Source: Solimonas terrae
Lineage (GTDB): Bacteria > Pseudomonadota > Gammaproteobacteria > Nevskiales > Nevskiaceae
Assembly (NCBI RefSeq): GCF_011067135.1
Contig: NZ_JAAMOW010000005.1
Coordinates: forward strand, 62,001 to 126,000
Direction of reading: 5' to 3'
Length of the DNA stretch: 64,000 nt
Part shown: positions 19,738-64,000 of the stretch, one piece after another
How positions within the stretch are numbered: position 1 is the first letter of the stretch
How the letters are laid out: each line of letters opens with the position of its first letter
Translations under genes and position numbers: made by a program
Notes under the pieces: model-generated
Told to the model about the DNA's origin: nothing
Seen by the model: only the letters and a program-made list of their open reading frames with translations
Database searches by the model: none

Positions 19738-19751
19738 CGTGTTCGGAGTTT

Positions 19752-20488: not shown

Positions 20489-20513
20489 CAGAACTGCAAA
20501 AAGCGAGACGGCC

Positions 20514-23206: not shown

Positions 23207-23237
23207 AGTATAACGGTCAGCTGGCGGTCAGCGTAAA
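23207..23237 (-). promoter_or_regulatory. candidate promoter of petABC
   Basis: On the leftward strand, TATACT (23207-23212) is a good -10 match. TTTACG (23232-23237) is a weak -35 at a long 19-bp spacing. This would give an 80-90 nt leader before petA. There is no other likely promoter in the 166-bp gap. Confidence 0.35.
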
Positions 23238-23283
23238 CCCTTGCGTGCCGAATCCCGGTGTCGGCCGATGCCGCTCCCTGCGC

Positions 23284-24776: not shown

Positions 24777-24778
24777 GC

Positions 24779-25438: not shown

Positions 25439-25604
25439 GCGTCTCCTGACTGCAACCTCTATTGCCGGGGTTGGGACCGCCGATCTGGCCCGGAGTGTAA
25501 CAGACCGATCCGGTCTGTCCTGCCGACCCTGACCATGGTGTGGCGCATGCTGCCGCCCGGGCGAAACGCCGACGCCGATGTGGCCGCGCCACTGCAGTCC
25601 CGCG

Positions 25605-37071: not shown

Positions 37072-37143
37072 GCGCAGCCGCGGACGCGAGAAAAATTACG
37101 ATTTCAAACGGCATGCTGCCGTGAGCGTTGGGGAGTTCTGAAC

Positions 37144-38148: not shown

Positions 38149-38160
38149 GCGGGCACGACC

Positions 38161-46432: not shown

Positions 46433-47334
46433 CGCCGGCACCGATCGTCATCGTCGCGGCGCCGTTCTCCGGCAGTTCGTGGCTGGCCGGTGTGCTCGGC
46501 ACGCAGCCGGGCTTGTACGCCGTGCCGCAACTGTGCGCGTTCATGGCCGATCGCGTCGACGAGCTGCTGCAGATCTTCGCGCTCAGCCAGGACGAGCATG
46601 GCGACGGTCTGCATCGCACGGTTGCCGAGCTGTATTTCGGCGGCCAGCAGGACGAGCAGCTGCAGGCGGCGCGTGGCTGGCTGGTCGAGCGTCGCGGTCG
46701 GTTGGTCGGCGAACTGCTCGACGAGTTGGCTGCCAAGGTGGCGCCGCGGCGTCTGGTGATTCCCGAAACCGAAGCGCCGCTGCGGCCGATCCAGCTGCGC
46801 CGTCTGCGGCAATGGCGCGCCGACACGCAGTTCATCCATCTTCATCGTCATCCCTGGAGTCAGGGCTGCCGTTTTGCAGCGTGGCTGCAGGATCGCCTGT
46901 TCGTACCGATCGACTACCGCGACTACAGTCGTTATCCGCCGCTGCCGGACCCGCAGATTCCGTGGCTGCGCGCCAACGAGACGCTCGACCGTTTCTTCGC
47001 GACGCTGCCGGACGTGAGCGTCCTGCGGATTGCGAGCGAAGCCTTCGATGAGGACTTTCGTGCCGCCCTGACGCGGCTCGCCGATTTTCTGCAACTCGGT
47101 GGCGACGCCGCGGCCTGGGCCTCGCTGCGCGACGCGTCGGACTGGATTTACGCAGCACGAGGGCCGCGTGCGGCACCCGGTGGTCTGGAGGCCGAGGTCT
47201 GGGCGCCGTGGTCGGACGAAGTCGAGCGCCTTGCGCAGGTGCCGCAACTCGATGCCGCGCTGCCGTGGCGGCCCGATGGTCTGGGCTTCGATCCTGCCGT
47301 CGTCGCGCTCGCACGGCGCTACGCCTACCGTTGA
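46429..47334 (+). CDS. sulfotransferase-family protein
   Basis: A 301-residue protein that looks like a PAPS-dependent sulfotransferase. The N-terminal P-loop-like segment APFSGSSWLAGVLGTQPGLY fits the 5'-phosphosulfate-binding motif (often R-S-G-T-T-W-L). The HLHRHPWSQGCRF segment could form the 3'-phosphate site. A late FDEDFRAALTRLADFLQLGG helix is also typical. The acceptor is unknown. The GTG start overlaps the preceding stop, ending the coupled run TolC-HlyD-propeller-sulfotransferase, and the gene converges on the synthase cluster. No PAPS-making genes are in the window. Confidence 0.72.
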   Translation: MTPAPIVIVAAPFSGSSWLAGVLGTQPGLYAVPQLCAFMADRVDELLQIFALSQDEHGDGLHRTVAELYFGGQQDEQLQAARGWLVERRGRLVGELLDELAAKVAPRRLVIPETEAPLRPIQLRRLRQWRADTQFIHLHRHPWSQGCRFAAWLQDRLFVPIDYRDYSRYPPLPDPQIPWLRANETLDRFFATLPDVSVLRIASEAFDEDFRAALTRLADFLQLGGDAAAWASLRDASDWIYAARGPRAAPGGLEAEVWAPWSDEVERLAQVPQLDAALPWRPDGLGFDPAVVALARRYAYR

Positions 47335-47472: not shown

Positions 47473-48369
47473 TCAGTTCTTCTTCTGGTACTTCGAGAAG
47501 AAGCTCCAGATTTTCTGGCTGGCGTTGAAGCGCTCGTTGTTCGCGCCGAGCAGGAACTTCAGATAGGTCTTGCCGCCCGGCCACTGATGGCCCGCGCCGG
47601 CCAGACCGCACCACGACACCTCGTCGCCGCTGCGGCAGCCGCCCAGCGTCAGGCACTGCACGCCATCGGCGTCATAAGTCTGTTGTTCCTGCGTCGAGCA
47701 TTCGTTGCGCTTGCCGAAGCGGCTGACGATGTCCTTGATCGATGGCCGGTAGCTGCCCTGGAAGACGCCACCGTCCCAGGGAATGCGCGGATCGGCGCGA
47801 CCCTGGATCAGCAGGGTGGGGATCGGCTGGCGCTCATTGCAGTTGCTCACCATCGGCCCGCCCGATACCGGCGCGATCGCCACGAAGGTGTCCGGCGCGT
47901 CGCAGGCAATGCGGTGCAGCAGCATCGCGCCGTTCGAAAAGCCGGTGCCATAGACGCGCGAGGTGTCGACTGCATAGTGATGCTTCACGTCGGCGATCAC
48001 CGCGCGCACGAAACCGACGTCGTCGACATTGTCCTTCATCGGCGTCGCGCAGCAGCTGCCGGCATTCCAGGCGCGACCGATGCCGTCCGGGTAGACGACG
48101 ATGAAGCCGTTCTGGTCGGCGACGGAATCCAGGCCGGTCTGCGATTCCATGATCGCGCCGGTGCCGGCCCCGCCATGCAGCGCGACGACCAGCGGCGCCG
48201 GGCGATTGCCGATGCCGTCCGGCGTGTGGACCACGTAGTGGCGCTCGTTGCCACCGAAGCTGATGTCGGTTTCAGTGGTTGCCGCACAAGCTGTGAGGGA
48301 AGCGAACAGGCTGCCGCTCGCCAGCAGGCCGAGCAGCACGTTACGGACGGACAAGGGGGACGTCGTCAT
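47473..48369 (-). CDS. secreted esterase, PHB-depolymerase/LpqC family
   Basis: A 298-residue alpha/beta-hydrolase of the LpqC/PHB-depolymerase-like carbohydrate esterase 1 group. The N-terminus has a signal and a possible lipobox (SLTACAA). Nucleophile Ser is in YGTGFSNGAMLLH, Asp in IQGRADPRIPWDGG and His in AGAGHQWPGG. LVVALHGGAGTG forms the oxyanion loop. Several Cys pairs suggest disulfides. It lies 69 bp after the CoA-transferase gene and is the last gene of the leftward cluster. A role in product release or ester trimming outside the cell is inference. Confidence 0.88.
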   Translation of the reverse strand: MTTSPLSVRNVLLGLLASGSLFASLTACAATTETDISFGGNERHYVVHTPDGIGNRPAPLVVALHGGAGTGAIMESQTGLDSVADQNGFIVVYPDGIGRAWNAGSCCATPMKDNVDDVGFVRAVIADVKHHYAVDTSRVYGTGFSNGAMLLHRIACDAPDTFVAIAPVSGGPMVSNCNERQPIPTLLIQGRADPRIPWDGGVFQGSYRPSIKDIVSRFGKRNECSTQEQQTYDADGVQCLTLGGCRSGDEVSWCGLAGAGHQWPGGKTYLKFLLGANNERFNASQKIWSFFSKYQKKN

Positions 48370-48438
48370 GATCAGAACTCCGGCAGCAGTACGGTGAACC
48401 TTATGGCAGTTTCCTTAACGCAGCATGAGACCGTAATC

Positions 48439-50721
48439 TCAGGGACGAAGTTCGTAGGCGGTACGCAGCTTCGACGGGCTGATGTCGGGCAGCGCCAGAC
48501 CGAGCGGCGTGAAGAAGGTCGCGTTGGCTTCGCCGAGATCCGGCCCGCTGTGGCGGACACGGCCGCCACCACGCGCGAAGTGGAACGGCAGGCCCGGCAG
48601 CCGTCGTCCGCCGTCGACCTGCTGCAGCCAGTCACGGGCCTGCAGATGCGGGTCGACCGCGATGTCGGCGGCGTTGTAGACCCTGCCGGCGGCCAGGCCG
48701 TCGTGCTGCAGCGCCTGGACCAGCGTCTCCGCGTCCTGGCCGGCGGTCCAGTTGTTGATCAGGTCATCGATCGCGTCATGGGCCGCGCGCCGGCCTTCGA
48801 CGCCCGCATAGGCCGGGTCGAGCGCAGCGCCGCCGATGCGAGCTGCGAGCTTTGACCACTCGGTGTCGCTGCGCACCGACAGCACCAGCCAGCGATCGTC
48901 GCCGCTGCAGCGATAACAGCCCTGCGGCGCGAACTGCGCATGACGGTTGCCGCGCGGTGCGACACTGCCCGGCGCTCGCGCCGCCGCAATCAGCTGCTCG
49001 CCCATCAGCCAGGCCGCGGTTTCCGATTCGGCGAGATCGATCCACTGGCCGTCGCCGTTGTGCGCCCGGTGCCAGAGCGCGGTCATCACCGCGCAGGCTC
49101 CGGCCATGCCGTTGGTGACATCCATTTCCCGCACCCGGAAGCGCCGGCCGTCAGCGCTGTACGCGGTCAGATCCTGAATGCCGCAGATCGCTTCGAGCGT
49201 GCCGCCGTAGCCGGCGTACTGCGCGTACGGGCCGTCGCTGCCGAACGCCGACATCGAAACGAGAATGATGTCGGACTTGAGTTTGCGCAGCGCCGCGTAG
49301 TCATAACCGAGCTTGGCCATCACGCCGGGCCGCGAATTCTCGACCACGACATCGGCCTGCCGGACGAGGGCCGAGAACACCTGGCGATGCGCGTCGTCGC
49401 GCAGGTCCAGGGTCAGCGAACGCTTGTTGCGATGCAGTTGCCAGAGGCGTGGATGTTCGTTGACCCTGGCTGGCATGCCGCCGCGCATGCCGTCGAGCCG
49501 TTGCGGGTACTCGATCTTGATCACTTCGGCGCCGTAGTCGGCGAGCACGCGCGCGCAATGCGGACCGGCCCAGTCGTGCGTGAGGTCGAGCACGCGCAGC
49601 CCTGCCAGCGGCGGCGCACTGGTGCTCGCAACTTGGCGTGGCGATCGATCGCCGGTGAAGCCCGCTGCCGCTGCGCTGGCGGGCGCCGGTTCGGTCCGCC
49701 AGCGCAGGGCGGAGCCGCGAAACGGTGCGCCCGGCATGCGGACGCGCCCGAGCCGTGCGTCCTCGAGCTCGACGAAGAAGCCGCGTGCCGCAAACTGCGG
49801 ATCGGCGATCGCCTCGGCGATGCTGGCGAGGTACGACCAGGCGAGGCCAGCCTGCTGACCGCGATGGAAGAGTTCGCGCTTGGGCTGGGTCGCGAGCCAG
49901 GGTTTGATCAGCGCTTCGAGCTGTTCGCGGTTCTGCATGCGCCCGCCCATGTCGGCGAGCCTGCCTTCCAGCAGCTCGGGCTCGCCGAACATCTCGGCGG
50001 CGCGCAGCCAGTGCCGGATCGGGCCGCCGACGATCGCCGCTTCGCCGTCTGCGCAGGGATAGGTGCGCCACGGCACCATCGGATGATTGTCGCCGCTGCG
50101 CCGTGCGAGCTTGCCGATCGCGAGATATTCGGTGATCGCGATCTCGCCGTTCTCGATCGCCGATTCCTGCATCGACAGGTCGATGCAGTCGCCACCACCA
50201 TCGCGTGCGCGGCGCAGCAAGGCCATGAGGCAGGCGATGTACGCGTTGAAGCCGGCCGACAGCTGCGTGATCCGCACGCCGGCATTCAGCGGTTCGCGCG
50301 TGCCGTCGCCGGTGCAGTGCATGAGACCCGACATGGCGTACAGCGTGATGTCTTCCGCCTGCCAGTCGCGATGCGGCCCGTCCTGGCCGAACGGCGAAAT
50401 CCGGCAGACGATCACCCGTTCGGCGAGGCCGGCAACATCGATGCCGCGGGCCTCCAGCGCCGCCGGCGGCCAGCCGTCGACGACGATGTCGGCGCCGTCG
50501 AGCAGCTCGCGCAGTTGCGGGTCGGCGGCGGCCGAGCCGTTTGCCTGCCAGTCGCGCTTGCCGGTGTCCAGCCACGCGCGTTCTTCGTCGCTGCGCGTTG
50601 CGCCACGCTGCGTTTCGACTCGCAGCACCTCGGCGCCGAAGCCGGCCAGCAGCTTGCAGCAGTAGGCGCCGGCGATGTGGCCGACCAGTTCAACGACCCT
50701 GATTCCTTCCAGTCCCTGCAC
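48439..50721 (-). CDS. tandem class III CoA-transferase (CaiB/BaiF family)
   Basis: A 760-residue protein made of two CaiB/BaiF-type CoA-transferase units in tandem. Unit 1 (residues 1-365) begins LEGIRVVELVGHIAGAYCCK, and unit 2 (from about 372) begins LAGLRVLDLTHDWAGPHCAR. Each has its own Asp-containing segment in the position of the catalytic Asp: GGGDCIDLSMQES and GDGQWIDLAESET. Usual family members are about 400 residues and dimerise; the fusion may be a built-in dimer. It is probably a CoA transferase on a carboxylic acid feeding or leaving the synthases, although the substrate is unknown. The GTG start is preceded by GGGGAG. Confidence 0.87.
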   Translation of the reverse strand: MQGLEGIRVVELVGHIAGAYCCKLLAGFGAEVLRVETQRGATRSDEERAWLDTGKRDWQANGSAAADPQLRELLDGADIVVDGWPPAALEARGIDVAGLAERVIVCRISPFGQDGPHRDWQAEDITLYAMSGLMHCTGDGTREPLNAGVRITQLSAGFNAYIACLMALLRRARDGGGDCIDLSMQESAIENGEIAITEYLAIGKLARRSGDNHPMVPWRTYPCADGEAAIVGGPIRHWLRAAEMFGEPELLEGRLADMGGRMQNREQLEALIKPWLATQPKRELFHRGQQAGLAWSYLASIAEAIADPQFAARGFFVELEDARLGRVRMPGAPFRGSALRWRTEPAPASAAAAGFTGDRSPRQVASTSAPPLAGLRVLDLTHDWAGPHCARVLADYGAEVIKIEYPQRLDGMRGGMPARVNEHPRLWQLHRNKRSLTLDLRDDAHRQVFSALVRQADVVVENSRPGVMAKLGYDYAALRKLKSDIILVSMSAFGSDGPYAQYAGYGGTLEAICGIQDLTAYSADGRRFRVREMDVTNGMAGACAVMTALWHRAHNGDGQWIDLAESETAAWLMGEQLIAAARAPGSVAPRGNRHAQFAPQGCYRCSGDDRWLVLSVRSDTEWSKLAARIGGAALDPAYAGVEGRRAAHDAIDDLINNWTAGQDAETLVQALQHDGLAAGRVYNAADIAVDPHLQARDWLQQVDGGRRLPGLPFHFARGGGRVRHSGPDLGEANATFFTPLGLALPDISPSKLRTAYELRP

Positions 50722-50787
50722 GGCGATCTCCCCGATTGTCCTGATCTTGTATGTGATGACGCTTGTCCGGCCGCCGCCTTCGGGCGC

Positions 50788-51612
50788 TCAGCGCAGGAAA
50801 GCCTGCAGTTCGGTCAGTGTCTCGGCGACATGGCTGACCGGAAAGAAATGCCCGCCGCCTGCCACCCGGCGCCACTGCGTATTCGGCAACAGCGCCGTCA
50901 GTTGTTCGCCCGAACGCAGGGCTCGCGAGTGTTCGGCGTACATCAGCAGGCAGGGCAGGTTCAGGCCGCGCAGCGCGTCGGTCGTCGCACCCGGCGTCAC
51001 GAATTCTCTGCGTGCCGAGGTTTCGTCGAGCAGTCGCAGCCAGGCGCGCGCCGCGCGCTTTGCGCCGCGCCCTTCGCCGAAGGGCGTGAAGGCATCACGC
51101 ACTTCGAGATCAATGCCGTCCACCACGCAGCGTGCGGCCGCTTCGAGAAAGCGGAAGCCGATTTCCGGGTCGTTCTGCCAGTCGCCGCCATCCTGTGCGG
51201 CGACCGCGCGCTCGAAAGCGGTCAGGGCATCGATGTCATGCAGGCGCAGCTGCGGCTGCAGGCGCTGGATGCGCGTGTCCATCAGGCACAGATGCGTGAA
51301 GCGTGCGGCTTGCGCGGCAACCGCCTCGAGCGCGACCGCGCCGCCGTAGCTGTGGCCGACCAATGCCGCTTGCGCGATACCACGCTCGTCCATCAGTTCG
51401 AGCAGGTCCTGCGCCATCACCGTCGTGCTGTAGCCGGACGGTGGCGTGTCGCTGTAACCGTGGCCGCGCAGATCGTAGATCGTGACGCGGCAGGTTTGCG
51501 CCAGTGCCGACGCCAGGCGCGGATACCAGAACGCGCGGTTGGCGCCGAGGCCGTGAATCATCACGACGTCCGGGCCGCTGCCGAACTGCTGCGAGGCCAG
51601 CTTCACGCTCAC
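50788..51612 (-). CDS. alpha/beta-fold hydrolase
   Basis: A 274-residue hydrolase. The oxyanion motif is MIHGLGANRAFW, the nucleophile elbow GHSYGGAV and the C-terminal His in GGGHFFPVSH. YDLRGHGYSDTPPSGY is typical of the MhpC/haloalkane-hydrolase-like group. There is no signal peptide, so it is cytoplasmic. In this cluster it could serve as a stand-alone thioesterase or product hydrolase, but that is inference. The start is a GTG at 51612 (another GTG lies two codons on). It lies 66 bp before the CoA-transferase gene. Confidence 0.84.
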   Translation of the reverse strand: MSVKLASQQFGSGPDVVMIHGLGANRAFWYPRLASALAQTCRVTIYDLRGHGYSDTPPSGYSTTVMAQDLLELMDERGIAQAALVGHSYGGAVALEAVAAQAARFTHLCLMDTRIQRLQPQLRLHDIDALTAFERAVAAQDGGDWQNDPEIGFRFLEAAARCVVDGIDLEVRDAFTPFGEGRGAKRAARAWLRLLDETSARREFVTPGATTDALRGLNLPCLLMYAEHSRALRSGEQLTALLPNTQWRRVAGGGHFFPVSHVAETLTELQAFLR

Positions 51613-51685
51613 GTTCGCGCCCGCGGCGTCTGCGACGCGACGCGCCCGCGGTGCGCAAGATCCGGGCAGCGCGACACGCGCATGC

Positions 51686-51976
51686 TCAGCTTGCGGACAT
51701 GTACGGCACGAGGAAGTCGGCGATCTGACCGATCGACAGGTCGTCGACGTAGCGGCCGTTGTTCATCAGCAGCTGATCGAACGCAACCTTGCGATGCGTG
51801 ATGTCTTCCTCGATCGCGACCACGAGCTGGATGATGTCGATCGATTCGAAACCCAGATCGGCGAGCAGCTTGGTCTCGCGCGTCATCGCACCTTCGTCTT
51901 CGCGGTCCCAGTCCTGCGTGAATTCGTCGAGCAGGGCGATCAGTTGCTGCAACAGCTCATTGCTGGCGGTGGTCAT
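51686..51976 (-). CDS. stand-alone acyl carrier protein
   Basis: A 96-residue four-helix carrier protein. Ser45 in LLADLGFESIDIIQLV is the likely phosphopantetheine site; the segment is FESI where DSL or DSI is usual. The acidic recognition helix and later KVAFDQLLMNN and LSIGQIADFLVPY resemble other ACPs. It sits between the acyltransferase and hydrolase genes, seven or fewer bases from the former. It could load the LbH acyltransferase, act with the synthases, or carry a starter unit. Confidence 0.9.
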   Translation of the reverse strand: MTTASNELLQQLIALLDEFTQDWDREDEGAMTRETKLLADLGFESIDIIQLVVAIEEDITHRKVAFDQLLMNNGRYVDDLSIGQIADFLVPYMSAS

Positions 51977-51982
51977 AGGGCA

Positions 51983-52807
51983 TCAAGTGTAAAGCGGACG
52001 AGGAAGGAGTTCGCTGCTGAAACGGCCGCGTTCGCGCGTGAGGCGATAGGTCGGCGGCAGCAGGGTCTGCAGCTTGCCGGCCGCGAGTAGCGCTTCGAGC
52101 GTCGCGACCGCCGTTTCCATGTCGCGGAAATCGATGCTGCGCTTGTGCGGTGCCAGATCGTAGCGCCACCACTGCAGCTTCGACAGGCGCTCGACGAGGG
52201 CTTCGCTGGTACGCAGCCGCAGCACCTTGGCCGGTGCTCCGACGACGATCGCATACGGCGGCACGTCACGCGTGACGACCGCGTGGGCGGCAATGATCGC
52301 GCCGTCGCCGATCGTCAGGCCGCGCTTGACGAAAGCGCCGGCGCCGATCCAGACATCGTGTCCGATCGTCGTCTGGCCGGGCATGCGATAGGTTTCCGGC
52401 GCGTCTTCGTCCGGCGCCAGTCGCGTGAACTCCTCGAGCTGGTAGAAGTGCGGCAGATGTTCGCGACGCGTGAACGAAAACGGATGCGTGGTGAACTGAT
52501 CGACCGGATGTTCGGGCGCGCCGACGATCACCGACTCGGCGATCGAGCAGTACCGTCCCATCTTCGTGCCGTACAGGCTCGAGGTGTAGTGGCCGTTGAT
52601 GTAGCTGAACGCGCCAAGCGTGCAGTTCTTGATCCGGCGCGGGTCGAAGACATAGGCCGGCCGCTCATAGACGAGCTGGCCGGTGATGCCTTTGCCTTCG
52701 ATGACGCACAGACCCTGCTCAAGCAGGTCGGCGGGTTTCAGGCCGCCGGGCTGCTGCTCGGCGGCGGGGTAGAACGGTGCCCCGGGGGCGGGCCTCTCTG
52801 CAGTCAT
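51983..52807 (-). CDS. hexapeptide-repeat acyl/acetyltransferase (CatB-like)
   Basis: A 274-residue protein with a left-handed beta-helix of the xenobiotic acetyltransferase type. The hexapeptide core includes [20 protein letters not shown] and the ending [46 protein letters not shown] resembles the catalytic His region of the family. The N-terminal 45 residues are Pro-rich and extra. It probably transfers an acyl group from CoA or from the adjacent ACP to a hydroxyl or amine; the acceptor is unknown. The ATG at 52807 follows the phosphodiesterase stop by 7 bp. Confidence 0.85.
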
Positions 52808-52814
52808 GCGCGGC

Positions 52815-54416
52815 TTATTCCATGTAGCCCAGCATCTGCAGCTGTTCGATGATCTGCTGCTTCTCGCCGCTGTCCATTTCCTGCGCGTCCTCGTCACGCT
52901 TGATCGCCTGCGTGCGCGCACCTTTCTTGACCGGCCTGGCTTCCATCCATTCCGGCGTGAAGAACGTGCTCGGGACTTCACCTTCGAAGTCGGAAGGCAC
53001 CGAGACGCCGGCGCTGTACAACAGGGTGGGCGCGACATCGACGATCTTGCGCAGGCCGACTTCGCCGGCGGCCGGAATGCCCGGGCCGGCGGCCATGAAG
53101 ATGCCGTCCGGGTGGTGGGTGCCGATCGCGGCCGGGCGCTTCACCAGCGACGGCTTGAAGTTGCGGATCGACACGAAACCGTTGTCGCGCAGCACCAGCG
53201 TCAGATCCGGCGCACGGTTCATGTGGCGGCCCTGGAACCAGTCCTCGCGCTTGAGCACATCGACGATCACCGGTTCGCCGGTTTCCGGATCGCGGAACGA
53301 CAGCAGGTCTTCCGTGAGCTTGGCGCGGAACGCCTCGTAGTCTTTCGGATCGATGCCGGGATCGCCGGGCTTTTCGGCGACGCGGATGTTGATTCCATTC
53401 GACGACGGCGTCAGGCAGCAGGCCGTGGTCTTGCTCCAGTCGAGGTTCGCGAAGTCCGATGCTTCGCGCCGCTTGGCCATCTCGCTGCCGTCATTGTCGG
53501 CCCAGGCGAGATAGCCCTTTTCCTCGAGCAGCGTGTTGATGCGCAGCACGAAGGTCGAGGCGGTGAAGCCGTGATCGCTGGCGAAGAACACCTGCGCGTC
53601 CGGGCCGACCATTTTCACGAGCTTCTCGATGTAGCCGTCGAGCTTGTGGAAGTACTCGAGGCAGACCTCGCGCATTTCCTTGTCGTGGCCCTGCGGGTTC
53701 TTCGGCAGCAGCGTCTTGTCGAGCCACGGCCAGGCCTGGTGCTGGATCTTGTCGGTGCCGTCGAACATCACCGCCATCAGATCCGGCTTGTCGTTTTCGA
53801 GAATGTACTCGGCAACGCGGAACCACTGCTCCTCGCGCGGCAGGTGATAGCGCACCCACTTCGCGGTTTCGTCGGCCGACAGCGATTCCATCGCCTGCTT
53901 TTCCTTGTCGAAGTCCCAGGCCAGCTCCTTCGGATCGAATCCCGGAATCTCGTTCTTGATGCGCTCGAACAGTTCGCGCGGATGCGTGTTGCGGCGCAAG
54001 TGCTTGGCCGGCACGAAACCCGGCACGATCGCGCCGTTGATGCCCTCCGGCGCCGGCGCGGTCAGCGGGAAATTCAGCGCGGCGATGGTCTTCTTCTTGC
54101 GCGAGGCGATCGACCAGATCGTCTCGGTATCGACGTCGCGCGCGTCATACAGTGTCCAGTAGACCTCGTCGCCACGGTCTTCGGCGCGGATGAATTCGAA
54201 GACGCCATGCTCGCCCGGGCCCTTGCCGGTCATGATGCTGGTCCAGGCTGGCGGTGTCAGCGGATTCGGTGTCGAGCGCAGCTTGGCGCGCACACCTTTT
54301 TCCATCAGCGATTTGATGAACGGCATCGTCACGCCCTCGCCGGGCAGATCGCTGATCATCTGATCCAGCACGGTGAAGGTGCAGCCGTCGAGGCCGATAA
54401 AGAGAGTCGTGGTCAT
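52815..54416 (-). CDS. type I phosphodiesterase / alkaline-phosphatase-superfamily enzyme
   Basis: A 533-residue alkaline phosphatase superfamily protein of the type I phosphodiesterase/nucleotide pyrophosphatase group. Metal ligands are evident: Asp in [10 protein letters not shown], nucleophile Thr in [13 protein letters not shown], Asp-His in [11 protein letters not shown] and His in GTHHPDGIF. The last 60 residues are charged and may be disordered. There is no signal peptide at the start, so a cytoplasmic location is likely. It lies 7 bp after the second synthase gene and could hydrolyse or transfer phospho-headgroups of a lipid product; this is inference. Confidence 0.87.
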
Positions 54417-54423
54417 GGAGTTT

Positions 54424-57400: not shown

Positions 57401-59325
57401 ACATCCATTTCGAACAAACGGCTTTCGAGCGCCTTGCGGCCGTTCTCGCCGAGCACGGTCGGCGGCGGAAACAGCATCGGCGCGCGCGAATCGCTGCCGC
57501 GGCGAACGGCGTTGCGTTCGATGAAGTCGAACCAGTCGCGCACCTGCGGGAACTGTACGCACAGCTCGGACAGCATGTCCGGGTACTGCGAGCCTTCGCC
57601 GGGAAACAGGAAGCACAGCTTGCCGGGTGGATCGCCGACGCCGTAGTGAATGCCGCCGCGGGTCTTGAACGGTTTGGCGTCGACGCGCTCGATCTTCTCG
57701 ATCGCGTGTTCGAGCTTCTTGTGCAGGTCGTCGCCGCCGCTGCAGATCAGCGCCAGACGGTGCGGGCCGCGCGCGTAGGCGCTGCAGGCCTTGGCGACTT
57801 CAGCCAGCGATGCCGACTGCAGATGCGCCATCGCCGTGCGCGCGCGCAGCAGCAGTTCCTCGCGCGACTCGGCGGCGAGCACGAGCAGTTCGGAGTGGCT
57901 GGGTGCATGCAGGACCTGCACCTGCGTCACTTTCGGACCGCGATACTCTTCGAGGATCACGTGCGAATTGATGCCGCCGAAGCCGAAGGCGTTGACCCCG
58001 GCGCGGCGCGGATGCTTGCGGCCGTGGATCCACGGCCGCGTTTCGGTGTTCAGGTAGAACGGCGAAGTTTCCAGCTGCAGCGTCGGGTCGACCTCGTCGC
58101 ACAGCATCGGCGGCAAGACCTTGTGATGCAGCGCCAGTGCCATCTTGATCAGCGATGCGCCGCCGCTTGCCGGCATGCAGTGGCCGATCATCGATTTGAC
58201 CGCGGTGATGCCGATCTGCTGGTCGTGCCCGCGCTCGCCGAACACGGCGCGCAGCGATTCGATCTCGGTCTTGTCGCCGACGCTGGTGCCGGTGCCATGT
58301 GCCTCGATCAGGTCGATCGACATCGGGTCGATGCCGCTGCTCTGGTAGGCGCGGCGCACCGCAAGGATCTCGCCTTCGAGACGCGGTGCGAGCAGGCCCT
58401 TGGCGCGGCCGTCCGATGCCGTGCCGATACCACGCACGACGGCATAGATGCGGTCGCCGTCGCGCTCGGCGTCGGCGCGGCGCTTGAGCACCAGCATGCC
58501 GACGCCCTCGCCGAGCAGCGTGCCTTCCGAACCCTTCTGGAACGGCCGGATGCGGTCGCGCGACAGCGCATTGATGCGGCAGAACTGCATGAAGATCTGC
58601 GGCGGCGTGTGTGCGTGCGAGCCGCCGACCAGCATCAGGTCGCAGCGGCCGCTGTTGAGCTCGCGGACCGCCGATTCGAGCGCGATCATGGTCGTCGCGC
58701 AGGCGGCATCGACGATGTAGCTCGGGCCCATCAGGTTGAGGCGGTTGGCGATCAAGCCGGCGATCACGTTCGGCGTCAGCACGCCGATGTGCTCGCCCAT
58801 GAACGGCGGCAGCTGATCTTTCAGCATGGTCTGCAGGCGGCGCACATCCTGGGCGCTGAAATCCGGACGCAGGCCGCGGATCAGGTCCATCGCCTGATCG
58901 AGGAACAGGGTGCGCGACATCGTGCCGGCCATGCCGCGATTGCCGTAGGTCCCGCGACCGACGACCACGCCGGCACGTTCGCGGTCGAACGGCTTGTGCA
59001 GGTAGCCGGCGTCGTCGAGCGCGTCGTGCGCGCATTTCAGCGACAGCAGATGATCGGGATCGGCACCCGCCGCGACCGTCGGCATGACACCGTACAGCTG
59101 CGGATTGACGCGCGCGTGTTCGCCGAGAAAGCCGCCGCGCGTCGTGTAGATGCGATCGTCGTCGGTGGCGTTTTCCTCGAAGTACGGACCGACCCATTCC
59201 GGATCGGCCTCGCGCACGGCGTCGACCTTGTCGAGGATGTTCTGCCAGTACTGGCGGGCATTGCCGGCGCCGGGATAAATCCCGGCGACGCCGATGATCG
59301 CGATGTCGAGCGGCTGCTGGCTCAT
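54424..59325 (-). CDS. modular synthase KS-AT-DH-phosphopantetheinyl transferase
   Basis: A 1633-residue type I synthase of the PUFA/polyketide kind. Ketosynthase (1-460) has active-site Cys209 in IVDAACATTM and His residues at 343 (EAHGTGTSVG) and 382 (IGHCMPASGG). Acyltransferase (565-880) has GHSTGE with Ser672 and AYH at 783. A helical linker (995-1015) follows. The dehydratase (1055-1360) has His1091 (RDHTLG) and Asp1276 with Q1280. The C-terminus (1435-1625) is a phosphopantetheinyl transferase with SIAHS, GLDYQ (Gln where Glu is usual) and WAAKEA. No ACP or ketoreductase is present, so it must work on carriers of the partner synthase. Confidence 0.93.
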   Translation of the reverse strand: MSQQPLDIAIIGVAGIYPGAGNARQYWQNILDKVDAVREADPEWVGPYFEENATDDDRIYTTRGGFLGEHARVNPQLYGVMPTVAAGADPDHLLSLKCAHDALDDAGYLHKPFDRERAGVVVGRGTYGNRGMAGTMSRTLFLDQAMDLIRGLRPDFSAQDVRRLQTMLKDQLPPFMGEHIGVLTPNVIAGLIANRLNLMGPSYIVDAACATTMIALESAVRELNSGRCDLMLVGGSHAHTPPQIFMQFCRINALSRDRIRPFQKGSEGTLLGEGVGMLVLKRRADAERDGDRIYAVVRGIGTASDGRAKGLLAPRLEGEILAVRRAYQSSGIDPMSIDLIEAHGTGTSVGDKTEIESLRAVFGERGHDQQIGITAVKSMIGHCMPASGGASLIKMALALHHKVLPPMLCDEVDPTLQLETSPFYLNTETRPWIHGRKHPRRAGVNAFGFGGINSHVILEEYRGPKVTQVQVLHAPSHSELLVLAAESREELLLRARTAMAHLQSASLAEVAKACSAYARGPHRLALICSGGDDLHKKLEHAIEKIERVDAKPFKTRGGIHYGVGDPPGKLCFLFPGEGSQYPDMLSELCVQFPQVRDWFDFIERNAVRRGSDSRAPMLFPPPTVLGENGRKALESRLFEMDVAAESVFAASLGLHALFEDLGIKADAMLGHSTGENTVLTAAGVGRVRHREETADAAQQFHRIYRELEAAGQIAEGSLLTIGGLTPALRSELLANLGPMHLAMDNCPNQLVLFGPHEQAAKLHERLRSEGAICQELPFGRAYHTALFKPLADAFRAYFQTLDFGPGTTIVYSASTCAPFPDDAPGIRELAARQWEHPVRFTETVQRLYEDGYRVFLEVGPSGNLSSFVGDILRGKDDVLAVSSNSRRKSGLAHLHQTLAQLFAAGVDFEPARLFAHRSIAEIDLLTTPKAAAKPLPQLKLINPVWKLPEEFRRPLPSTTSAAKAVNPEAARPSASATPPPAAPAAKAPSVSDPRLDMLNAHFALMQDFLDSQARVLGLAAGVPGGVMMPSATAGQHPLSVAPAAAPATAPVAGTDIDPLFPMLGTITEQAPGRMVMERRYDLDRDLFLRDHTLGNAPSAQDPSLTGLAVIPFTFSMEMIAQAAMRLAGRSDRVVVAIEHSRGSRWLSLDDGGVTLRIVAEATPDNADEIACRVFLLGDGTPAGGMLVFEGQVRLAAAYPPAPAVQPLGAGLQAPHIHLPGQLYAHGMFHGPRLQGCTRIDGHNGDGMVAELTTLPTHDYFAGIATPRLQFDAALLDAAGQLAGFWLRERNTGVPNCFPFRVRSLTLYAPPPAAGLRLRCDGAIVMRGDKQLDARWDISNGTGQLLMRAEGWEDRVFTAADRFFAFRLDPARARLSTPALEGQLPAELCVRKLEPLPEGMLDEGGTIWKRMFAHMVLSRAERRQFYALPAQGPRREEWLMGRLAAKDAARDWYRLNAGVELAPADVEIDTDARGKPFLRCPVVPQLTPPSVSIAHSRRWAYAVASASSVDLGLDYQRPDHVNTEDLITGGFAPSEHVWLQTTHGVDRSRIALALWAAKEAAAKAAGSGLLGRPRDWQVIAAQLDRRSSSPTVARVRHGEHDYDIALHFENSGAVLALCVTTATHPPIQNPPSLA

Positions 59326-59380
59326 GAGCTCACGCGACCGTGCCGCTGCGTGGGGCCGGGCTGAAGGAAGGCATGCTGTT

Positions 59381-62300
59381 TCATGCGCTCTCGTTCGGCT
59401 GGCTCTTGGTGTTCGCGGCCTGACCGCCGAGACGGTTCAGTGCTGCGCTCATCGTGCCCTCGCAGCGGCGCATCTCCAGACGCACGCGATCCTGATCGTC
59501 GACGAACAGCGCGTCGTAGAGCACACCGGCGTCATGCGGCGCCTCGCGCATGCGCAGCACCAGCCGCAGCGACGGCGGCAACGCCCCGACACCGTAACGC
59601 AGCACGGCGCCGAAGCTCGACGGCAGCGCCGTCATGTTGCGGTTCAGTCGCGACCAGACGATCGCCATCTGCGGCGCGACATCGACCAGGCCCGGATCGA
59701 ACAGCCAGCTGCCGGGCGCGGCGACCAGCCAGTCCTGCGGCTGGCAGGGTTTGACCAGTGCGTCGATGCCGCCGGCCGCGACGGCCGGGATCGACGTCAC
59801 CAGCTGGAAGCGCGGTCCGTGGAACAGGAGGTGGGCATAGGCATCGCCGGCCGCGAACGGCTTGCCGCCATCCAGCGTCTCGGCCGGCGCCGGCGGGGCA
59901 TCCGGCATCTGCTGCTGCAGCACGGCGGTGGCACGGTACAGCGGCAGCTTCTTCGCGGGATCGATGATTTCGACCGTGATGTTCTGACCGGTGTGATCGG
60001 CGTGCGAGGATGCGCGTGCGCGCAGCTGCACGCTGCGCTTGCCGTCATTGATGGCGGGGTCGATCGTGATGCCGCCCATCTGGCGAACGTCCCGCATTTC
60101 GACGACATGCCAGCCCGGCCAGGCGGCGGTGACGAACTGCGCCATCCACTCGACCGCGCCTGCTGCCGGCAGCACGCCGCGGCCGTCGATGCGGTGATCG
60201 AGCAGATACGGATCGGTGGCGAGGCTGAACTGGTGATCCAGCATCATGTTGCCGCCAGGTCCCATGCGCGGTACCGAGCGAACCAGCGGCAGCACTGGAT
60301 CGGTGTCACTGCCGGCCGGCGCGCTCGCCGCTTCGCTGGCCCCGACGTACCAGGGGCCGGCACCGGCGACGATTTCGACATCGTGGCGTGTGCCGTAGAG
60401 GATTTCGTCGACGAAGAAGCGCCGGCCCGACGGCACCGGGATCGCCTCGATGCCGCGCTCCTTGAACGCACGACGCACGCCTTCGCTGGCCATGCCCGCA
60501 TCCCAGGGGCCCCAGTTGATCGCGAGCACGCGCGCCTGCGGCCATTCGCGATGCAGCTGCCAGGCGAGACGGTTCAGGGTTTCATTGGCGGCGGCGTAGT
60601 CGCCCTGGCCGCGGTTGCCGTAACGTCCGGCGACCGAGGTGAAGAACGCGAGCAGCTTGAGCGATTCAGGCTTCAGCTTGCGCGAGAGCACGAAGGCGGC
60701 GTCGAGCTTGGTGCCGAGAACGCGCTCGAACGATTCGGCGGTCTTGTCGGTGAACAGCTTGTCTTCGATGACGCCGGCGCCGTGCAGCACGGCATCGATG
60801 CGGCCGTAGTCCGCGTACAGCCGATCGACGATCGCCGACAGTGCCGCTTCGTCGCGCACATCGCAGGCCAGATACTCGACCTGGGCGCCCGCGGCGCCGA
60901 GGCGCGCAAGATTGCCGCGAATTTCGCGATCGGTGAGCACGCGCGTGACCGCCCGTTCGATCTCGACCGGTTTCGGTTTTTCACCGCGCGCCAGCGCCTG
61001 CCTGAGCAGGCCGCTCTTCAGTTGCGCAGCGTCCGCGAAGGCCTGCGTGTCTGCTGCCTCGGCGCCCGGCGCCGCCGTGCGGCCCAGCAGCACCAGACGC
61101 ATGCCCGGGCGTACCAGCTCTTCGACGATCTCGGCGGTGATGCCGCGCGCGCCGCCGGTGACCAGCACCACCCAATCGCCTTCCGGTGTCACTGCAGCCG
61201 GGAACGGACTCGGTGTCAGTGGCCGGCTGACCGTGCTGCTGCCATGACGGACCGTGCCCACGTAGCCGACTTCCGGCTCGGCGCATTCGGCGTACAGCTC
61301 GCCGGCCAGCAGTTCGGCGATTTCGACATCGCTCTGGCCATCGAAATCGACGGCGCGCATTGTCGCCTGCGGATATTCCTGACGCAGGCAATTCAGCAAG
61401 CCGTTGCCGGCGCCGGCGGGCGCCGCCCCATTGCTGAACGAGTCGCGACCGAAGGTGCCGCCGAAGCGGCTGGCGACCAGCACGCGTGCCGTTGCCAGGT
61501 CCTCGCCACTGCCCTGCAGACCGTGGAACAGACTCAGGGCCTCGCTCGCGCAGCGCGCACGCCAGGCCGCCAGATCGCCGATCTCGCCGGCACTCAGGCC
61601 GTGCAGATGCATGACGCCGCCGATCCGGCCGTGCCTGGCACGGGCTGCGGCAATTGCCGCGCGCAGGGCGTCGCCCTCGTGTTCGGCAATGTGCACCGGG
61701 ATCAGCCTCTGCGCCTTCAGTTTCTCGCTCAAGGCCTTGGCGATCGGTGCCGGGCCGCCGAGCAGCAGCATCAGTCCGCTCAGGCTTGCGCGCGCTTCCG
61801 GCAGGGGCGCCGGACGCGATCGGATGACATAGCGTGGTGTCGCTGCGAAGACGGTTGCAGACGGCGCGCTGCCGGGCTGCGTCGCCGTGCTCGTGACGGG
61901 AGCAGCCGCGGCCGGCGCGACGGCATCGAGGGCGGCGAGCGCCTGCACGATGGCCTGCAGCGACTTGGCCTTGGTGAAGCGTTCCATGCCAACCTGCATC
62001 TGTGCCCCCTGCGCGGCAGGCAGCAGCTTCTGCAGGGCGCCGAGAATTTCGACGCGCTTGATCGAGTCGATGCCGAGATCGGCCTCGAGGTCGGCATCCA
62101 TGGCCAGCATTTCCGGCGGATAGCCGGTGCGCTCGGCGACGATGCCGATCAGGGTTGCCGCGAAATCGACCGGTGCAGCGACGACGACGGCCGCGCTCGG
62201 CGCTGATGCGGCGACGCTGGTCGTGGGCGTTGCGGCCGGCGCCAGCTTCTGCAGCTCGGCGACGATCGCGCCCAGCGACTTGGCTTTGGTGAAGCGCTCC

Positions 62301-64000
62301 ATGCCGGCCTGCATCTGCGCGGCGAGCTCGCCGGGCAGGGCCTTCTGGAACGCACCGAGGATTTCGACGCGCTTGATCGAGTCGATGCCGAGATCGGCTT
62401 CAAGGTCGGCCTCGAACCCGAGCATCTCGACCGGATAACCGGTGCGCTCGGCGACCAGCGTCGTCAGCGTGCCGGCGTAATCGATCGCGACGGCGGCAAC
62501 CGCCACGGCTGCGGCCGGCGCTGCGGTGGCAGCCGGCGCGGCCGCCGGTGCGATGTGCCGCAATTCGGCAAGGATCGCGCTCAGCGACCTGGCCTTGGTG
62601 AAACGTTCCATGCCGGCCTGCATCTGCGCAGCGGCAGTGGCCGGCATTGCCTTCTGCACCGCGCCGAGGATTTCGACCCGTTTGATCGAATCGATGCCGA
62701 GATCGGCTTCGAGATCGGCGTCGAGGCCGAGCATTTCCGGCGGATAGCCGGTGCGCTCGGCGACGATGCCGGTCAGCAGCGCCTGATGATCGACGGCCGG
62801 GGCGCTGCCCGCGAGCGCGACGGCGCTCGCAGCCGGCGCGGCGGCCGGCATCGCGGCCTGGAAGCCGGACGATTGCGCCAGGATCGCGCTCAGCGACTTG
62901 GCCTTGGTGAAGCGCTCCATGCCGGCCTGCATCTGCGCCGCGGCATCCGCCGGCAGGGCTTTCTGGAACGCGCCGAGGATTTCGACCCGCTTGATCGAAT
63001 CGATCCCCAGGTCGGCTTCCAGATCCGCTTCGAGACCGAGCATGTCACTCGGATAGCCGGTGCGCTCGGCGACGATGCCGATCAGCAGCGCCTGCAGGTC
63101 GACGGCGGGTGCGGCGGCCGGCGCCATCGCCGGCATCGCGGCCGCTGCCGGCGCCGATCCCAGCGGCAGGGTGCGGGTCTGCGCGAGGATCGCGTTCAGC
63201 GACTTGGCCTTGGTGAATCCCTCCATCTGCGCCTGCATCTGCGTCGCGGCAGCAGCCGGCAGGGCTTTCTGGAAGGCGCCGAGAATTTCGACGCGCTTGA
63301 TCGAATCGATCCCCAGATCCGCTTCGAGATCGGCGTCGAGGCCGAGCATCTCGCCGGGATAGCCGGTGCGTTCGGCGACGATGCCGAGCAGCGTCTGCTG
63401 CGCATCGAACGCCGGCACGGCCGCGACGGCGACCGCAGCCACCGGCGTCGGCGTCGGCGCGGGCGCCGCGACAACCGCTGCCGGCGGCGTGAATGCGTGT
63501 ACCGCCGGCATGGCCGGCATTGACGCGGATGCGGTACTGCCGCCGCCGAGGTACTGCTGGAGCACGCGTTCCTGCAGCGAGAGGAACTGCCGCATCGTCT
63601 GCTGATAGGCGACCAGCGCATCGCCGGCCATCGCCGGCAGGGCGGGCATCGCAGCGGGCATGGCCGGCGACGGTATCACCTGGCCGGCTGCGGCAGGCGC
63701 CGCTGCGGCGACCCCGGAAACCGGTGTGCGTGCGGAGAGGGCGGCGCGCGCGCGCTCGGCGCTGGCCGCCGTCAGCGGCGGCAGGCTGCCGCTGCGCAGC
63801 AGCGGGTCGGCAATCGGCCGTGCGCAGCCACCGCTGAGCAGCCACATGTGCTTGGGGACGACCAGCGGCTTGGACAGCTCATCGAACTGGGCGTCATCGA
63901 GCAGCGCCAGATCGCGTCGCGCAAACAGGGCCGACGGCTGCCACGCGGCACCGGCGACGAACAGTTCCGCCAGGCCCATCAGCAGGCCGCGCATGCCACC
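59381..64000 (-). CDS. PfaA-like synthase: (KS-AT)-ACP5-KR-DH, 5' part outside window
   Basis: The frame is open to the end of the window, so the N-terminus is missing. The first visible residues (LAELFVAGAAWQPSALF) resemble the end of the AT region of the second synthase, suggesting KS-AT upstream. A helical VAYQQTMRQFLSLQERV segment follows, then five ACPs, each with GIDSIKRVEIL, spaced about 103 residues. A ketoreductase (about 720-1165 from the visible Met) has TGGARGIT, Ser1120, Tyr1133 and Asn1137. A dehydratase ends the protein with His1267 (LLDHRIDG) and a DVAPQ motif. KS-AT-ACPn-KR-DH is the layout of PUFA synthase PfaA and secondary-lipid synthases. Confidence 0.93.
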   Translation of the reverse strand, partial: GGMRGLLMGLAELFVAGAAWQPSALFARRDLALLDDAQFDELSKPLVVPKHMWLLSGGCARPIADPLLRSGSLPPLTAASAERARAALSARTPVSGVAAAAPAAAGQVIPSPAMPAAMPALPAMAGDALVAYQQTMRQFLSLQERVLQQYLGGGSTASASMPAMPAVHAFTPPAAVVAAPAPTPTPVAAVAVAAVPAFDAQQTLLGIVAERTGYPGEMLGLDADLEADLGIDSIKRVEILGAFQKALPAAAATQMQAQMEGFTKAKSLNAILAQTRTLPLGSAPAAAAMPAMAPAAAPAVDLQALLIGIVAERTGYPSDMLGLEADLEADLGIDSIKRVEILGAFQKALPADAAAQMQAGMERFTKAKSLSAILAQSSGFQAAMPAAAPAASAVALAGSAPAVDHQALLTGIVAERTGYPPEMLGLDADLEADLGIDSIKRVEILGAVQKAMPATAAAQMQAGMERFTKARSLSAILAELRHIAPAAAPAATAAPAAAVAVAAVAIDYAGTLTTLVAERTGYPVEMLGFEADLEADLGIDSIKRVEILGAFQKALPGELAAQMQAGMERFTKAKSLGAIVAELQKLAPAATPTTSVAASAPSAAVVVAAPVDFAATLIGIVAERTGYPPEMLAMDADLEADLGIDSIKRVEILGALQKLLPAAQGAQMQVGMERFTKAKSLQAIVQALAALDAVAPAAAAPVTSTATQPGSAPSATVFAATPRYVIRSRPAPLPEARASLSGLMLLLGGPAPIAKALSEKLKAQRLIPVHIAEHEGDALRAAIAAARARHGRIGGVMHLHGLSAGEIGDLAAWRARCASEALSLFHGLQGSGEDLATARVLVASRFGGTFGRDSFSNGAAPAGAGNGLLNCLRQEYPQATMRAVDFDGQSDVEIAELLAGELYAECAEPEVGYVGTVRHGSSTVSRPLTPSPFPAAVTPEGDWVVLVTGGARGITAEIVEELVRPGMRLVLLGRTAAPGAEAADTQAFADAAQLKSGLLRQALARGEKPKPVEIERAVTRVLTDREIRGNLARLGAAGAQVEYLACDVRDEAALSAIVDRLYADYGRIDAVLHGAGVIEDKLFTDKTAESFERVLGTKLDAAFVLSRKLKPESLKLLAFFTSVAGRYGNRGQGDYAAANETLNRLAWQLHREWPQARVLAINWGPWDAGMASEGVRRAFKERGIEAIPVPSGRRFFVDEILYGTRHDVEIVAGAGPWYVGASEAASAPAGSDTDPVLPLVRSVPRMGPGGNMMLDHQFSLATDPYLLDHRIDGRGVLPAAGAVEWMAQFVTAAWPGWHVVEMRDVRQMGGITIDPAINDGKRSVQLRARASSHADHTGQNITVEIIDPAKKLPLYRATAVLQQQMPDAPPAPAETLDGGKPFAAGDAYAHLLFHGPRFQLVTSIPAVAAGGIDALVKPCQPQDWLVAAPGSWLFDPGLVDVAPQMAIVWSRLNRNMTALPSSFGAVLRYGVGALPPSLRLVLRMREAPHDAGVLYDALFVDDQDRVRLEMRRCEGTMSAALNRLGGQAANTKSQPNESA
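61925..63409 (-). repeat. five tandem ACP modules
   Basis: Five carrier modules at spacings of 102-105 residues (about 309 bp) share nearly the same core (VAERTGYP, DLEADLGIDSIKRVEIL, and a KAKSL end). They are joined by Ala/Pro-rich linkers. The phosphopantetheine Ser residues, numbered from the first Met visible, are 231, 333, 436, 539 and 644. Tandem ACPs raise throughput in PUFA synthases. This is part of the gene, not a separate element. Confidence 0.92.

Follow-up and report, generated by a model that had tools for sequence, protein, structure and literature searches.

The genome of Solimonas terrae contains a gene cluster built around two giant synthases, S1 and S2, which on balance probably encodes a Pfa-like "secondary lipid" pathway leading to an exported, headgroup-modified long acyl chain, as judged from predicted domains and gene neighborhood. 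The cluster lies in a 64-kb stretch of DNA, hereafter termed the window, where ORFs and profile matches place eight genes in one tight run at 47473-64000 on the minus strand. An earlier note on this DNA had named a pair of giant synthases followed by six other genes, all of which are indeed present; its gene list, correct for these eight, missed the recurring plus-strand genes at 42630-47334 and a further gene upstream of S1. Neither tRNAs nor Rfam matches above the gathering score were found in the 64-kb window. The genes concerned are listed below with the underlying evidence in brackets.

59381..64000, minus strand: synthase 1 (S1), C-terminal half in the window (Pfam/NCBIfam, contig extension, AlphaFold/Foldseek of a relative, active sites)
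54424..59325, minus strand: synthase 2 (S2), 1633 aa, KS-AT-DH-PPTase (Pfam, active-site conservation in 69 rows)
52815..54416, minus strand: PF01663 phosphodiesterase of the alkaline-phosphatase superfamily, 533 aa (profile match, neighbor counts, conserved residues)
51983..52807, minus strand: hexapeptide-repeat (CatB/Vat-like) acyltransferase (profile match, neighbor counts)
51686..51976, minus strand: discrete acyl carrier protein (ACP), 96 aa (weak profile match below curated cut-offs; Ser45 conserved)
50788..51612, minus strand: alpha/beta hydrolase, candidate thioesterase or acyl hydrolase (profile match; Ser88/His255 conserved; neighbor counts)
48439..50721, minus strand: tandem CoA-transferase family III protein with two PF02515 stretches (profile match, neighbor counts)
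47473..48369, minus strand: PHB-depolymerase-type esterase, probably secreted (profile match; signal/lipobox-like N-terminus by eye)
46429..47334, plus strand: sulfotransferase-like protein, PF13469 (profile match, neighbor counts)
44954..46432, plus strand: beta-propeller protein, 492 aa, without Pfam or NCBIfam family (profile searches, co-occurrence with S2, Foldseek)
42630..44957, plus strand: membrane protein fused to a HlyD-type periplasmic adaptor, 775 aa (profile match, neighbor counts)
41223..42608, plus strand: TolC-type outer membrane efflux protein, perhaps taking part in export but of uncertain membership (profile match)
68686-69501, minus strand: sulfatase-like gene just upstream of S1, past the window end (contig extension)

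Repeats stand ahead of the sulfatase-like gene.

Extension on contig G000:C16 revealed that S1 comprises 3087 aa and runs on for 4.6 kb past the window end to 68644, with the domain order ER-ER-KS-AT-ACP5-KR-DH according to Pfam and NCBIfam profiles. Two FabK-type enoyl reductase domains (ER1 and ER2), the KS and a malonyl-type AT lie outside the window; the tail of the AT, the five ACP repeats, the KR and the DH lie inside. The PfaA layout attributed earlier to the first synthase is borne out by the five ACPs, by the KS-AT found past 64000 and by a score of 1418.6 bits against the NCBIfam PfaA model TIGR02813 (cut-off 1010.1). On the contrary, the claim that an enoyl reductase is missing does not hold: S1 bears a double FabK-type reductase at its N-terminus, just past the window, which escaped notice because the window end cuts S1 and the reductase domains are N-terminal. 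Profile matches identify this region as two FabK/NMO-type domains in tandem, and the corresponding N-terminus of an S1 relative was modelled by AlphaFold as two barrels (pLDDT 93.4, pTM 0.94), for which the best Foldseek matches were FabK-type proteins with a TM score (target) of 0.85-0.88. These two fused FabK-like barrels, which may bind FMN, correspond to the FMN TIM-barrel that marks a PfaD-type enoyl reductase. ER2 carries the His of the GGH motif in 56/56 aligned S1 sequences, whereas ER1 lacks a His there in all 56. The Cys-His-His residues of the KS, the Ser-Arg-His residues of the AT and the malonyl-binding Gln of the latter are likewise retained in 56/56.

The second synthase features a single KS and gave neither ACP nor KR matches with Pfam profiles; therefore, S2 depends on S1. 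Its KS-AT-DH-PPTase order agrees with the earlier view that it is neither PfaB nor PfaC, and since S1 and S2 possess one KS stretch each, the chain-length factor (CLF) reported as lacking was not found in either. Among 69 aligned S2 sequences, the KS C-H-H, AT S-H and DH H-D residues are invariant, and the PPTase His is replaced by another residue in 9. The malonyl-binding Gln of the AT is replaced in all 69 (Ser in 32, Ala in 31, others in 6), and profile alignment against the S1 Arg places a Gln of the window's S2 at the malonyl Arg position; an initial assignment of a Phe to this position was discarded on the basis of that alignment. Nevertheless, of the 68 S2 sequences in which the Ser motif is clear, 47 exhibit an Arg 24-27 residues farther on, no more than two places away from the S1 Arg position, so that malonyl may still be bound by many of the S2 ATs. 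The notion that the S2 AT is devoid of both malonyl residues was accordingly abandoned. PF21607, a FabD insert, is uninformative here. In the DH, the HxxxGxxxxP motif appears by eye to be interrupted by an insertion. As for the PPTase, the motifs RGKP and VSIAHS, identified by eye, fit the pattern of Types M-T, x(G/D)xP and hShxH, as given in the text of PMC3098273.

S2 occurs in 46 of 58 Nevskiaceae genomes and is otherwise scattered; the synthase pair spans seven phyla, in six of which the propeller is encoded nearby. Of the 67 named loci where 3 kb or more of sequence precedes S2, 65 have an S1-type synthase there, a pairing thus beyond chance, and the S1 and S2 clades are largely parallel. 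The S1 of a Rhodobacteraceae plasmid groups within the S1 clade, with a long branch, although its partner is without a KS. Where the flank after S2 extends for 7.5 kb or more (33 loci from Nevskiales, 33 from other groups), phosphodiesterase (31/33 and 25/33, respectively) and hydrolase (31/33 and 24/33) are the commonest S2 partners, joined by the ACP (30/33 and 18/33). The phosphodiesterase, with conserved residues D10, T54, D281, H282 and H434 and no relative at E <= 0.001 in a PDB sequence search, has a gene that adjoins that of the ACP in many distant loci; one gene separates the two in the window. The tandem CoA-transferase (13/33 and 2/33) and the hexapeptide acyltransferase, a neighbor almost only in Nevskiales, are confined mostly to that order.

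The HlyD-type exporter (9/33 Nevskiales, 14/33 others), the beta-propeller (13/33, 22/33) and the sulfotransferase-like protein (16/33, 11/33) of the plus strand also recur with the synthase pair. That these three genes constitute a separate envelope locus, only accompanying a genuine synthase pair, is unlikely. Their opposite strand is consistent with such a locus, as are their absence from the available flank of many Nevskiales loci, a cyanobacterium (G719) possessing the propeller without detectable S2, and the distance of about 43 kb between propeller and synthases in Sinimarinibacterium. This is opposed by the co-occurrence of propeller and S2: in 398 genomes across the phylum, the propeller is present in 4, the same 4 that show an S2 match at E <= 1e-60 (Fisher p about 1e-7 with the own genome left out, two of the three others being of one genus), although at a looser S2 cut-off of 1e-10 the propeller is missing in 6 of 10 genomes with a match. 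Moreover, 33 of 37 S2 genomes hand-picked from 79 loci contain the propeller and 4 lack it. Same-strand gene runs follow S2 in Neptuniibacter, Desulfobulbaceae and Brocadia, and a genome from another family of the same class (G468) unites ten of the twelve gene kinds, with the sulfotransferase-like gene beside the cluster. The propeller itself retrieved generic propellers only in Foldseek (best E 1.6e-8, TM over query <=0.46 among the 50 matches listed). For the TolC-type gene, a related gene was found in 2 other loci. DUF1329, YCF48-like and MMPL genes at 35950-40986, considered as export partners, showed no grouping with other loci in flanks of up to 10 kb. The sulfotransferase-like protein reaches only 33.7 bits with PF13469 and shares 25-47% identity with 25 of 26 relatives; given this divergence, the idea of sulfation is weak.

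The domain split, described earlier as uncommon, has been published before, as fused pfaDA plus pfaBC-PPTase in Aquimarina sp. TRL1, Flavobacterium sp. N502540 and Renibacterium salmoninarum, according to the text of PMC13291983. The Renibacterium cluster, whose product is uncharacterised, belongs to Type M of Shulse and Allen 2011. Compared by description rather than by sequence alignment, S1 resembles these Type M-like systems in carrying the ER on a PfaA-like protein, and S2 in combining AT and DH, functions of the pfaBC type, with a PPTase. Unlike the present cluster, the flavobacterial ones (Aquimarina, Flavobacterium) are stated to sit with PKS-NRPS genes, and phosphodiesterase, beta-propeller, HlyD and sulfotransferase-like partners are unmentioned in the text on the published fused clusters. 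Actinomycetota are represented in the KS tree by a Streptomyces pair together with one row from Rhodococcus and one S2 row from Pseudonocardiales. Hence, of the suggestion that the system is undescribed, the part concerning the domain split falls, and what stands is the larger set with phosphodiesterase, free ACP, hydrolase, sulfatase-like, HlyD, beta-propeller and sulfotransferase-like genes, which was not found described. No published description of the cluster was recognised in a literature search covering texts; an earlier drawing (e.g., under Types M or O) may exist in the figures or supplements of PMC3098273 and PMC13291983. Two further pairs are similar in part: the first protein of a Streptomyces sp. 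NBC_00984 plasmid pair (NMO-KS-AT-ACP-KR, with ACP and hydrolase annotated adjacent) resembles S1, and the second protein of another Nevskiaceae pair (L134) is KS-AT-DH-PPTase, as is S2. Their KS domains nonetheless fall outside both clades of the S1-S2 system, and a glycosyltransferase is nearby with no phosphodiesterase or propeller match.

Regarding the product, a polyene or partly reduced polyketide, in which an enediyne-PKS-like S2 would build unsaturated segments and S1 reduced ones, appears improbable. It would accommodate the competent-looking KS and DH of S2, which has no KR or ER of its own, the Arg kept near the malonyl position in many S2 ATs and the terminal PPTase, presumably reminiscent of enediyne PKSs; however, S1 possesses a complete reductive loop, and the missing ACP and KR matches of S2 argue against it as well.

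A phenolic-lipid pathway of the Ars kind (Type P), passing a C22-26 chain to a type III PKS to yield an alkylresorcinol or alkylpyrone, is very unlikely. The likeness stems from Beijerinckia, listed under Type P in the text of PMC3098273, whose plasmid pBIND02 encodes a synthase (NMO x2-KS-AT-ACP2-KR) sharing the NMO x2-KS-AT-ACP-KR order of S1, with its KS near S1 in the tree, as well as a partner with DH-PPTase at its end; between them lie two KAS-III-type genes, read as putative type III PKSs. That partner, however, has 629 aa and no KS or AT match, in contrast to S2, and 14 non-synthase proteins of the window contig gave no tblastn match in the Beijerinckia stretch. Above all, the ArsA/ArsD systems of Type P (Azotobacter, Beijerinckia) rely on type III PKSs, and the phenolic-lipid pathway was largely ruled out because the S. 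terrae genome gave no PF00195 match.

S1 shares the PfaA-like KS-AT-ACPn-KR order with PfaABCDE PUFA synthases (Types A and B), and the S2 AT is altered in one of two malonyl positions, recalling PfaB, which is described as a terminal acyltransferase and has neither Gln nor Arg; S2 retains the Cys-His-His of its KS, which the KS' of PfaB is said to lack (text of PMC12895367). An ordinary EPA/DHA-type synthase rearranged by fusion is nevertheless extremely unlikely despite the TIGR02813 score, the tandem ACPs and the PfaB-like loss of the malonyl Gln, since neither a CLF (KS-CLF didomain) nor a FabA-type dehydratase/isomerase was found in S1 or S2 at E <= 0.001, both DHs being PKS-type (PF21089, PF14765), and the earlier judgment that the product is no standard PUFA is likely correct.

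In the favored secondary-lipid pathway, for which the order of events, the role of the S2 KS and the headgroup are inferred, the S2 PPTase would arm the five ACPs of S1, whose AT would load malonyl. Iterative, fully reducing cycles would then be carried out by the KS, KR and DH of S1 with the second ER barrel and its GGH motif, ER1, which lacks the catalytic His, serving as the structural half of an intramolecular pseudo-dimer. The KS and DH of S2 would contribute a second set of cycles that differ chemically from the first. In the least certain step, the S2 AT with its altered malonyl pocket would shift the acyl chain off the synthase in a PfaB-like manner, the acceptor probably being the free ACP or some other molecule, and the hydrolase would act as release or editing enzyme. 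Subsequently, phosphodiesterase, sulfatase-like enzyme and sulfotransferase-like protein might put a polar group on the chain, the beta-propeller may be a dedicated tailoring or binding protein, and export would proceed via HlyD and an outer-membrane channel. The resulting long-chain lipid would be polar and for the most part saturated, and either displayed at the surface or secreted.

A more far-reaching proposal, put forward tentatively at slightly under an even chance, holds that the S1-S2 pair, together with the free ACP, a dedicated phosphodiesterase, the hydrolase, the HlyD exporter and a beta-propeller family specific to it, constitutes an undescribed pathway to an exported polar, possibly sulfated or phospho-modified, very-long-chain lipid, present in most Nevskiaceae and scattered widely beyond. 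In its boldest form, the phosphodiesterase would act on an acyl-carrier or headgroup phosphodiester, such that release or headgroup transfer would occur by phosphodiester chemistry instead of a thioesterase.

A 2011 list of secondary-lipid synthases distinguishes 20 types, and for 14 of these the products were uncharacterised (text of PMC3098273). One such system now has a defined gene set, a selective partner in the beta-propeller, a family that commonly carries it, and isolates with names (Solimonas, Stagnimonas, Hydrocarboniphaga), and thus its product can be sought directly. In addition, the system allows one to ask whether paired ERs must work as a pseudo-dimer when one of the two active sites is dead, and which role an AT fulfills in a competent KS-AT pair after its malonyl pocket has changed. 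Since related sets exist in several unrelated bacterial groups, identification of the product would explain a widespread trait.

The cluster of two adjacent giant synthases proposed in the earlier note is real, and the domain content of both proteins is well supported by sequence. The genome comprises 4.42 Mb in 20 contigs, and the end of the window (G000:C16:62001-126000) cuts the first synthase, S1, mid-gene; the contig was followed for a further 24 kb, numbered in extended window coordinates.

68644 (ATG start) to 59381 (end), (-): S1, 3087 aa, ER-ER-KS-AT-ACP5-KR-DH
54424-59325, (-): S2, 1633 aa, KS-AT-DH-PPTase (Pfam)
44954-46432, (+): beta-propeller protein, 492 aa
42630-44957, (+): membrane/HlyD-type adaptor (HlyD)

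The earlier note, which saw no enoyl reductase in the window, had pointed beyond 64000 for a KS-AT of S1 and a reductase, and both are found there: S1 carries KS and AT (Pfam), and a FabK-type double reductase is fused N-terminally to its KS. Numbered on a longer 3131-aa ORF, the Pfam domains of S1 are KS 728-1118, AT 1285-1610, five ACPs, KR 2537-2759 and a PKS-type DH 2841-3110. N-terminal of the KS, each half is matched by the FabK model of NCBIfam and by FabK sequences in the PDB, and three stretches of the first 740 aa match the NMO model of Pfam. In Solimonas sp. SE-A11, the corresponding 680 residues are modelled by AlphaFold as two barrels (alignment of 24; pLDDT 93.4, pTM 0.94), for which FabK and its relatives are the best Foldseek matches. 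In such reductases, the proposed catalytic His ends motif III (passages of PMC13311796). Since this His is kept by the second barrel in 56 of 56 S1 rows and never by the first (0/56; Trp in 36, Phe in 8, otherwise another residue), S1 would combine one working (second) and one structural (first) barrel. An ERb-ERc heterodimer is reported for a thraustochytrid synthase in the same passages.

All 69 rows of S2 share the active-site residues of KS (Cys209/His343/His382), AT (Ser672/His783) and DH (His1091/Asp1276); those of the PPTase vary in some, e.g. His1494 in 9/69. Reading by eye gives RGKP and VSIAHS as the PPTase motifs, which match the pattern given for Types M-T in PMC3098273. Unlike the PfaB KS' described in parts of PMC12895367, the S2 KS retains its catalytic triad. 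According to the same parts, PfaB, termed a terminal acyltransferase, has neither the Gln nor the Arg with which the PfaA AT binds malonyl. Both residues are kept by the S1 AT (56/56). In S2 the Gln is replaced in 69/69 rows, and the picture for the Arg is mixed: of the 68 rows whose Ser motif is clear, 47 have an Arg 24-27 residues after the AT Ser and 21 do not, and in the profile alignment the Arg position holds Gln in the S2 of the window. The S2 AT is therefore altered, but these rows do not establish it as PfaB-like throughout.

The domain split, which the earlier note considered uncommon, is already in print: for Aquimarina and Flavobacterium, PMC13291983 describes a fused pfaDA gene together with a fused pfaBC gene that also encodes a PPTase. 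This arrangement is there said to closely resemble that of Renibacterium salmoninarum, placed under Type M in PMC3098273. A Beijerinckia cluster shares the N-terminal layout of S1 but, unlike the window locus, contains two KAS-III-type genes, which we read as type III PKSs; a PF00195 search of the window's genome gave no match. Related synthase pairs with a glycosyltransferase nearby or adjoining occur on a Streptomyces plasmid and in L134, a second Nevskiaceae locus. The L134 synthases (G017:C34:134001-154000; 5768-10204 and ~10126-17265, both (-)) have KS domains outside the clades of the S1/S2 system, and other family members hold further frames of similar size. The window's own genome has only three strong KS matches: S1, S2 and one 434-aa frame. 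The set of S1, S2, ACP, phosphodiesterase, hydrolase and propeller was not found described in the literature covered, which for PMC3098273 and PMC13291983 comprised running text. From its host range, Dinoroseobacter, Gloeobacter and Parvularcula (PMC3098273), we suspect that Type O may be the same system.

With S2 residues 476-1633 as query (E <= 1e-90), a match was obtained in 46 of 58 genomes of the Nevskiaceae (own genome counted), in 6/27 from other families of the order and in 0/15 from other families of the class. In a phylum-wide draw of 398 genomes, residues 870-1633 matched in 10 at E <= 1e-10, 4 of which (own included) reached E <= 1e-60, a line set afterwards inside the gap between 3e-31 and 5e-62. 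Among GTDB contigs, 400 stretches encode an S2 relative; the best 80 of these, representing 79 distinct loci, include members of Pseudomonadota, Cyanobacteriota, Acidobacteriota, Planctomycetota, Myxococcota, Thermodesulfobacteriota and Actinomycetota, many being metagenome bins. In KS trees, Solimonas and other Nevskiaceae are the closest named relatives, and the S1 and S2 clades are largely parallel. Some placements, e.g. of Desulfobulbaceae among Gammaproteobacteria and of Acidiferrobacterales with Acidobacteriota, suggest horizontal transfer. The S1 of L122, a plasmid locus of Rhodobacteraceae bacterium SC52 (12892-27508), is placed within the S1 clade, where its branch is long, though its partner, AT-DH-PPTase, has no KS; TauD-type dioxygenase and methyltransferase genes lie between the two. 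Hydrocarboniphaga effusa AP103 carries two copies on one contig (L046 and L065), 203 kb apart and with equal identities to each query, which would reflect either recent duplication of the cluster or faulty assembly.

The surroundings were compared by gene calls in 73 loci plus the window (n=74) and annotation-free, single-linkage clustering. Phosphodiesterase and hydrolase each occur in 60, ACP in 52, propeller in 39, sulfatase-like in 34, hexapeptide acyltransferase in 30, sulfotransferase-like in 28, HlyD in 24, esterase in 21 and CoA-transferase in 16; a family without window member, SDR-like by eye, occurs in 18. S1 precedes S2 in 65/67 loci (exceptions L067 and L100).

Table. Gene kinds in loci with >= 7.5 kb after S2, grouped from record titles (Nevskiales; others).
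Phosphodiesterase: 31/33; 25/33
Hydrolase: 31/33; 24/33
ACP: 30/33; 18/33
Propeller: 13/33; 22/33
HlyD: 9/33; 14/33
Sulfotransferase-like: 16/33; 11/33
Sulfatase-like (precedes S1; undetected in flanks that end within S1): 25/33; 4/33
Hexapeptide acyltransferase: 28/33; 0/33
CoA-transferase: 13/33; 2/33
Esterase: 12/33; 8/33

By these counts, five genes therefore form the conserved core: S1, S2, ACP, phosphodiesterase and hydrolase. Their frequent partners are the propeller, HlyD, sulfotransferase-like and sulfatase-like genes; the CoA-transferase and hexapeptide enzyme have for the most part been added locally. In whole-genome searches of 37 genomes, hand-picked from the 79 loci, the sulfatase-like gene was found in 18. 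G468, a genome from another family of the class, unites core, all four partners and a partial esterase homologue in one stretch; searches there for the hexapeptide enzyme and CoA-transferase gave no match.

The propeller gave no match in Pfam (E <= 0.01) or NCBIfam (E <= 0.001) and at best E 0.85 against PDB sequences. Its AlphaFold model (alignment of 26) is confident and mostly beta (pLDDT 91.8), and propellers of many kinds make up most Foldseek matches. A homologue occurs in 33 of the 37 named S2 genomes, in some far from S2 or on another contig, and in 4/398 phylum-wide genomes, the same 4 with strong S2 (Fisher ~1e-7 excluding the own genome, 2 of the remaining 3 being of one genus and not independent; ~8e-6 when all 9 loose S2 matches are counted). 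Among 244 cyanobacterial genomes (seed included), the propeller occurs in 3 and S2 in 2; G719 holds a homologue (C1:2188269-2189675, 36%) and no detectable S2. In four distant relatives tested, the propeller is fused to a further domain, which points to a tailoring role: a methyltransferase in L082 and L083, an NAD-dependent epimerase in L094 and a hydrolase-like domain in L090.

Residues conserved in >= 97% of rows include D10, T54, D281, H282 and H434 of the phosphodiesterase (60 rows), D11, T42, D239, H240 and H252 of the sulfatase-like protein (32), S88 and H255 of the hydrolase (59) and S45 of the ACP (54); from our reading of the families, these are probably the catalytic ones. For the sulfotransferase-like protein (25 rows), P12 is the sole such residue in the PAPS-loop region and H141-P142 reaches this level outside it, making the family case appear weaker than for the other four. 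Ahead of a TolC-type gene, DUF1329, YCF48-like and MMPL/HAE3 exporter genes lie in a row (35950-40986, (+)), which looks like an export block that may be linked to the lipid cluster.

The role of the S2 AT, chain length, head group, sulfation and export are what we infer from these genes. Taken together, the enzyme architecture is a known, rarely reported arrangement, and it is the surrounding gene set that makes the locus a well-defined, product-unknown lipid pathway, as predicted from its genes.
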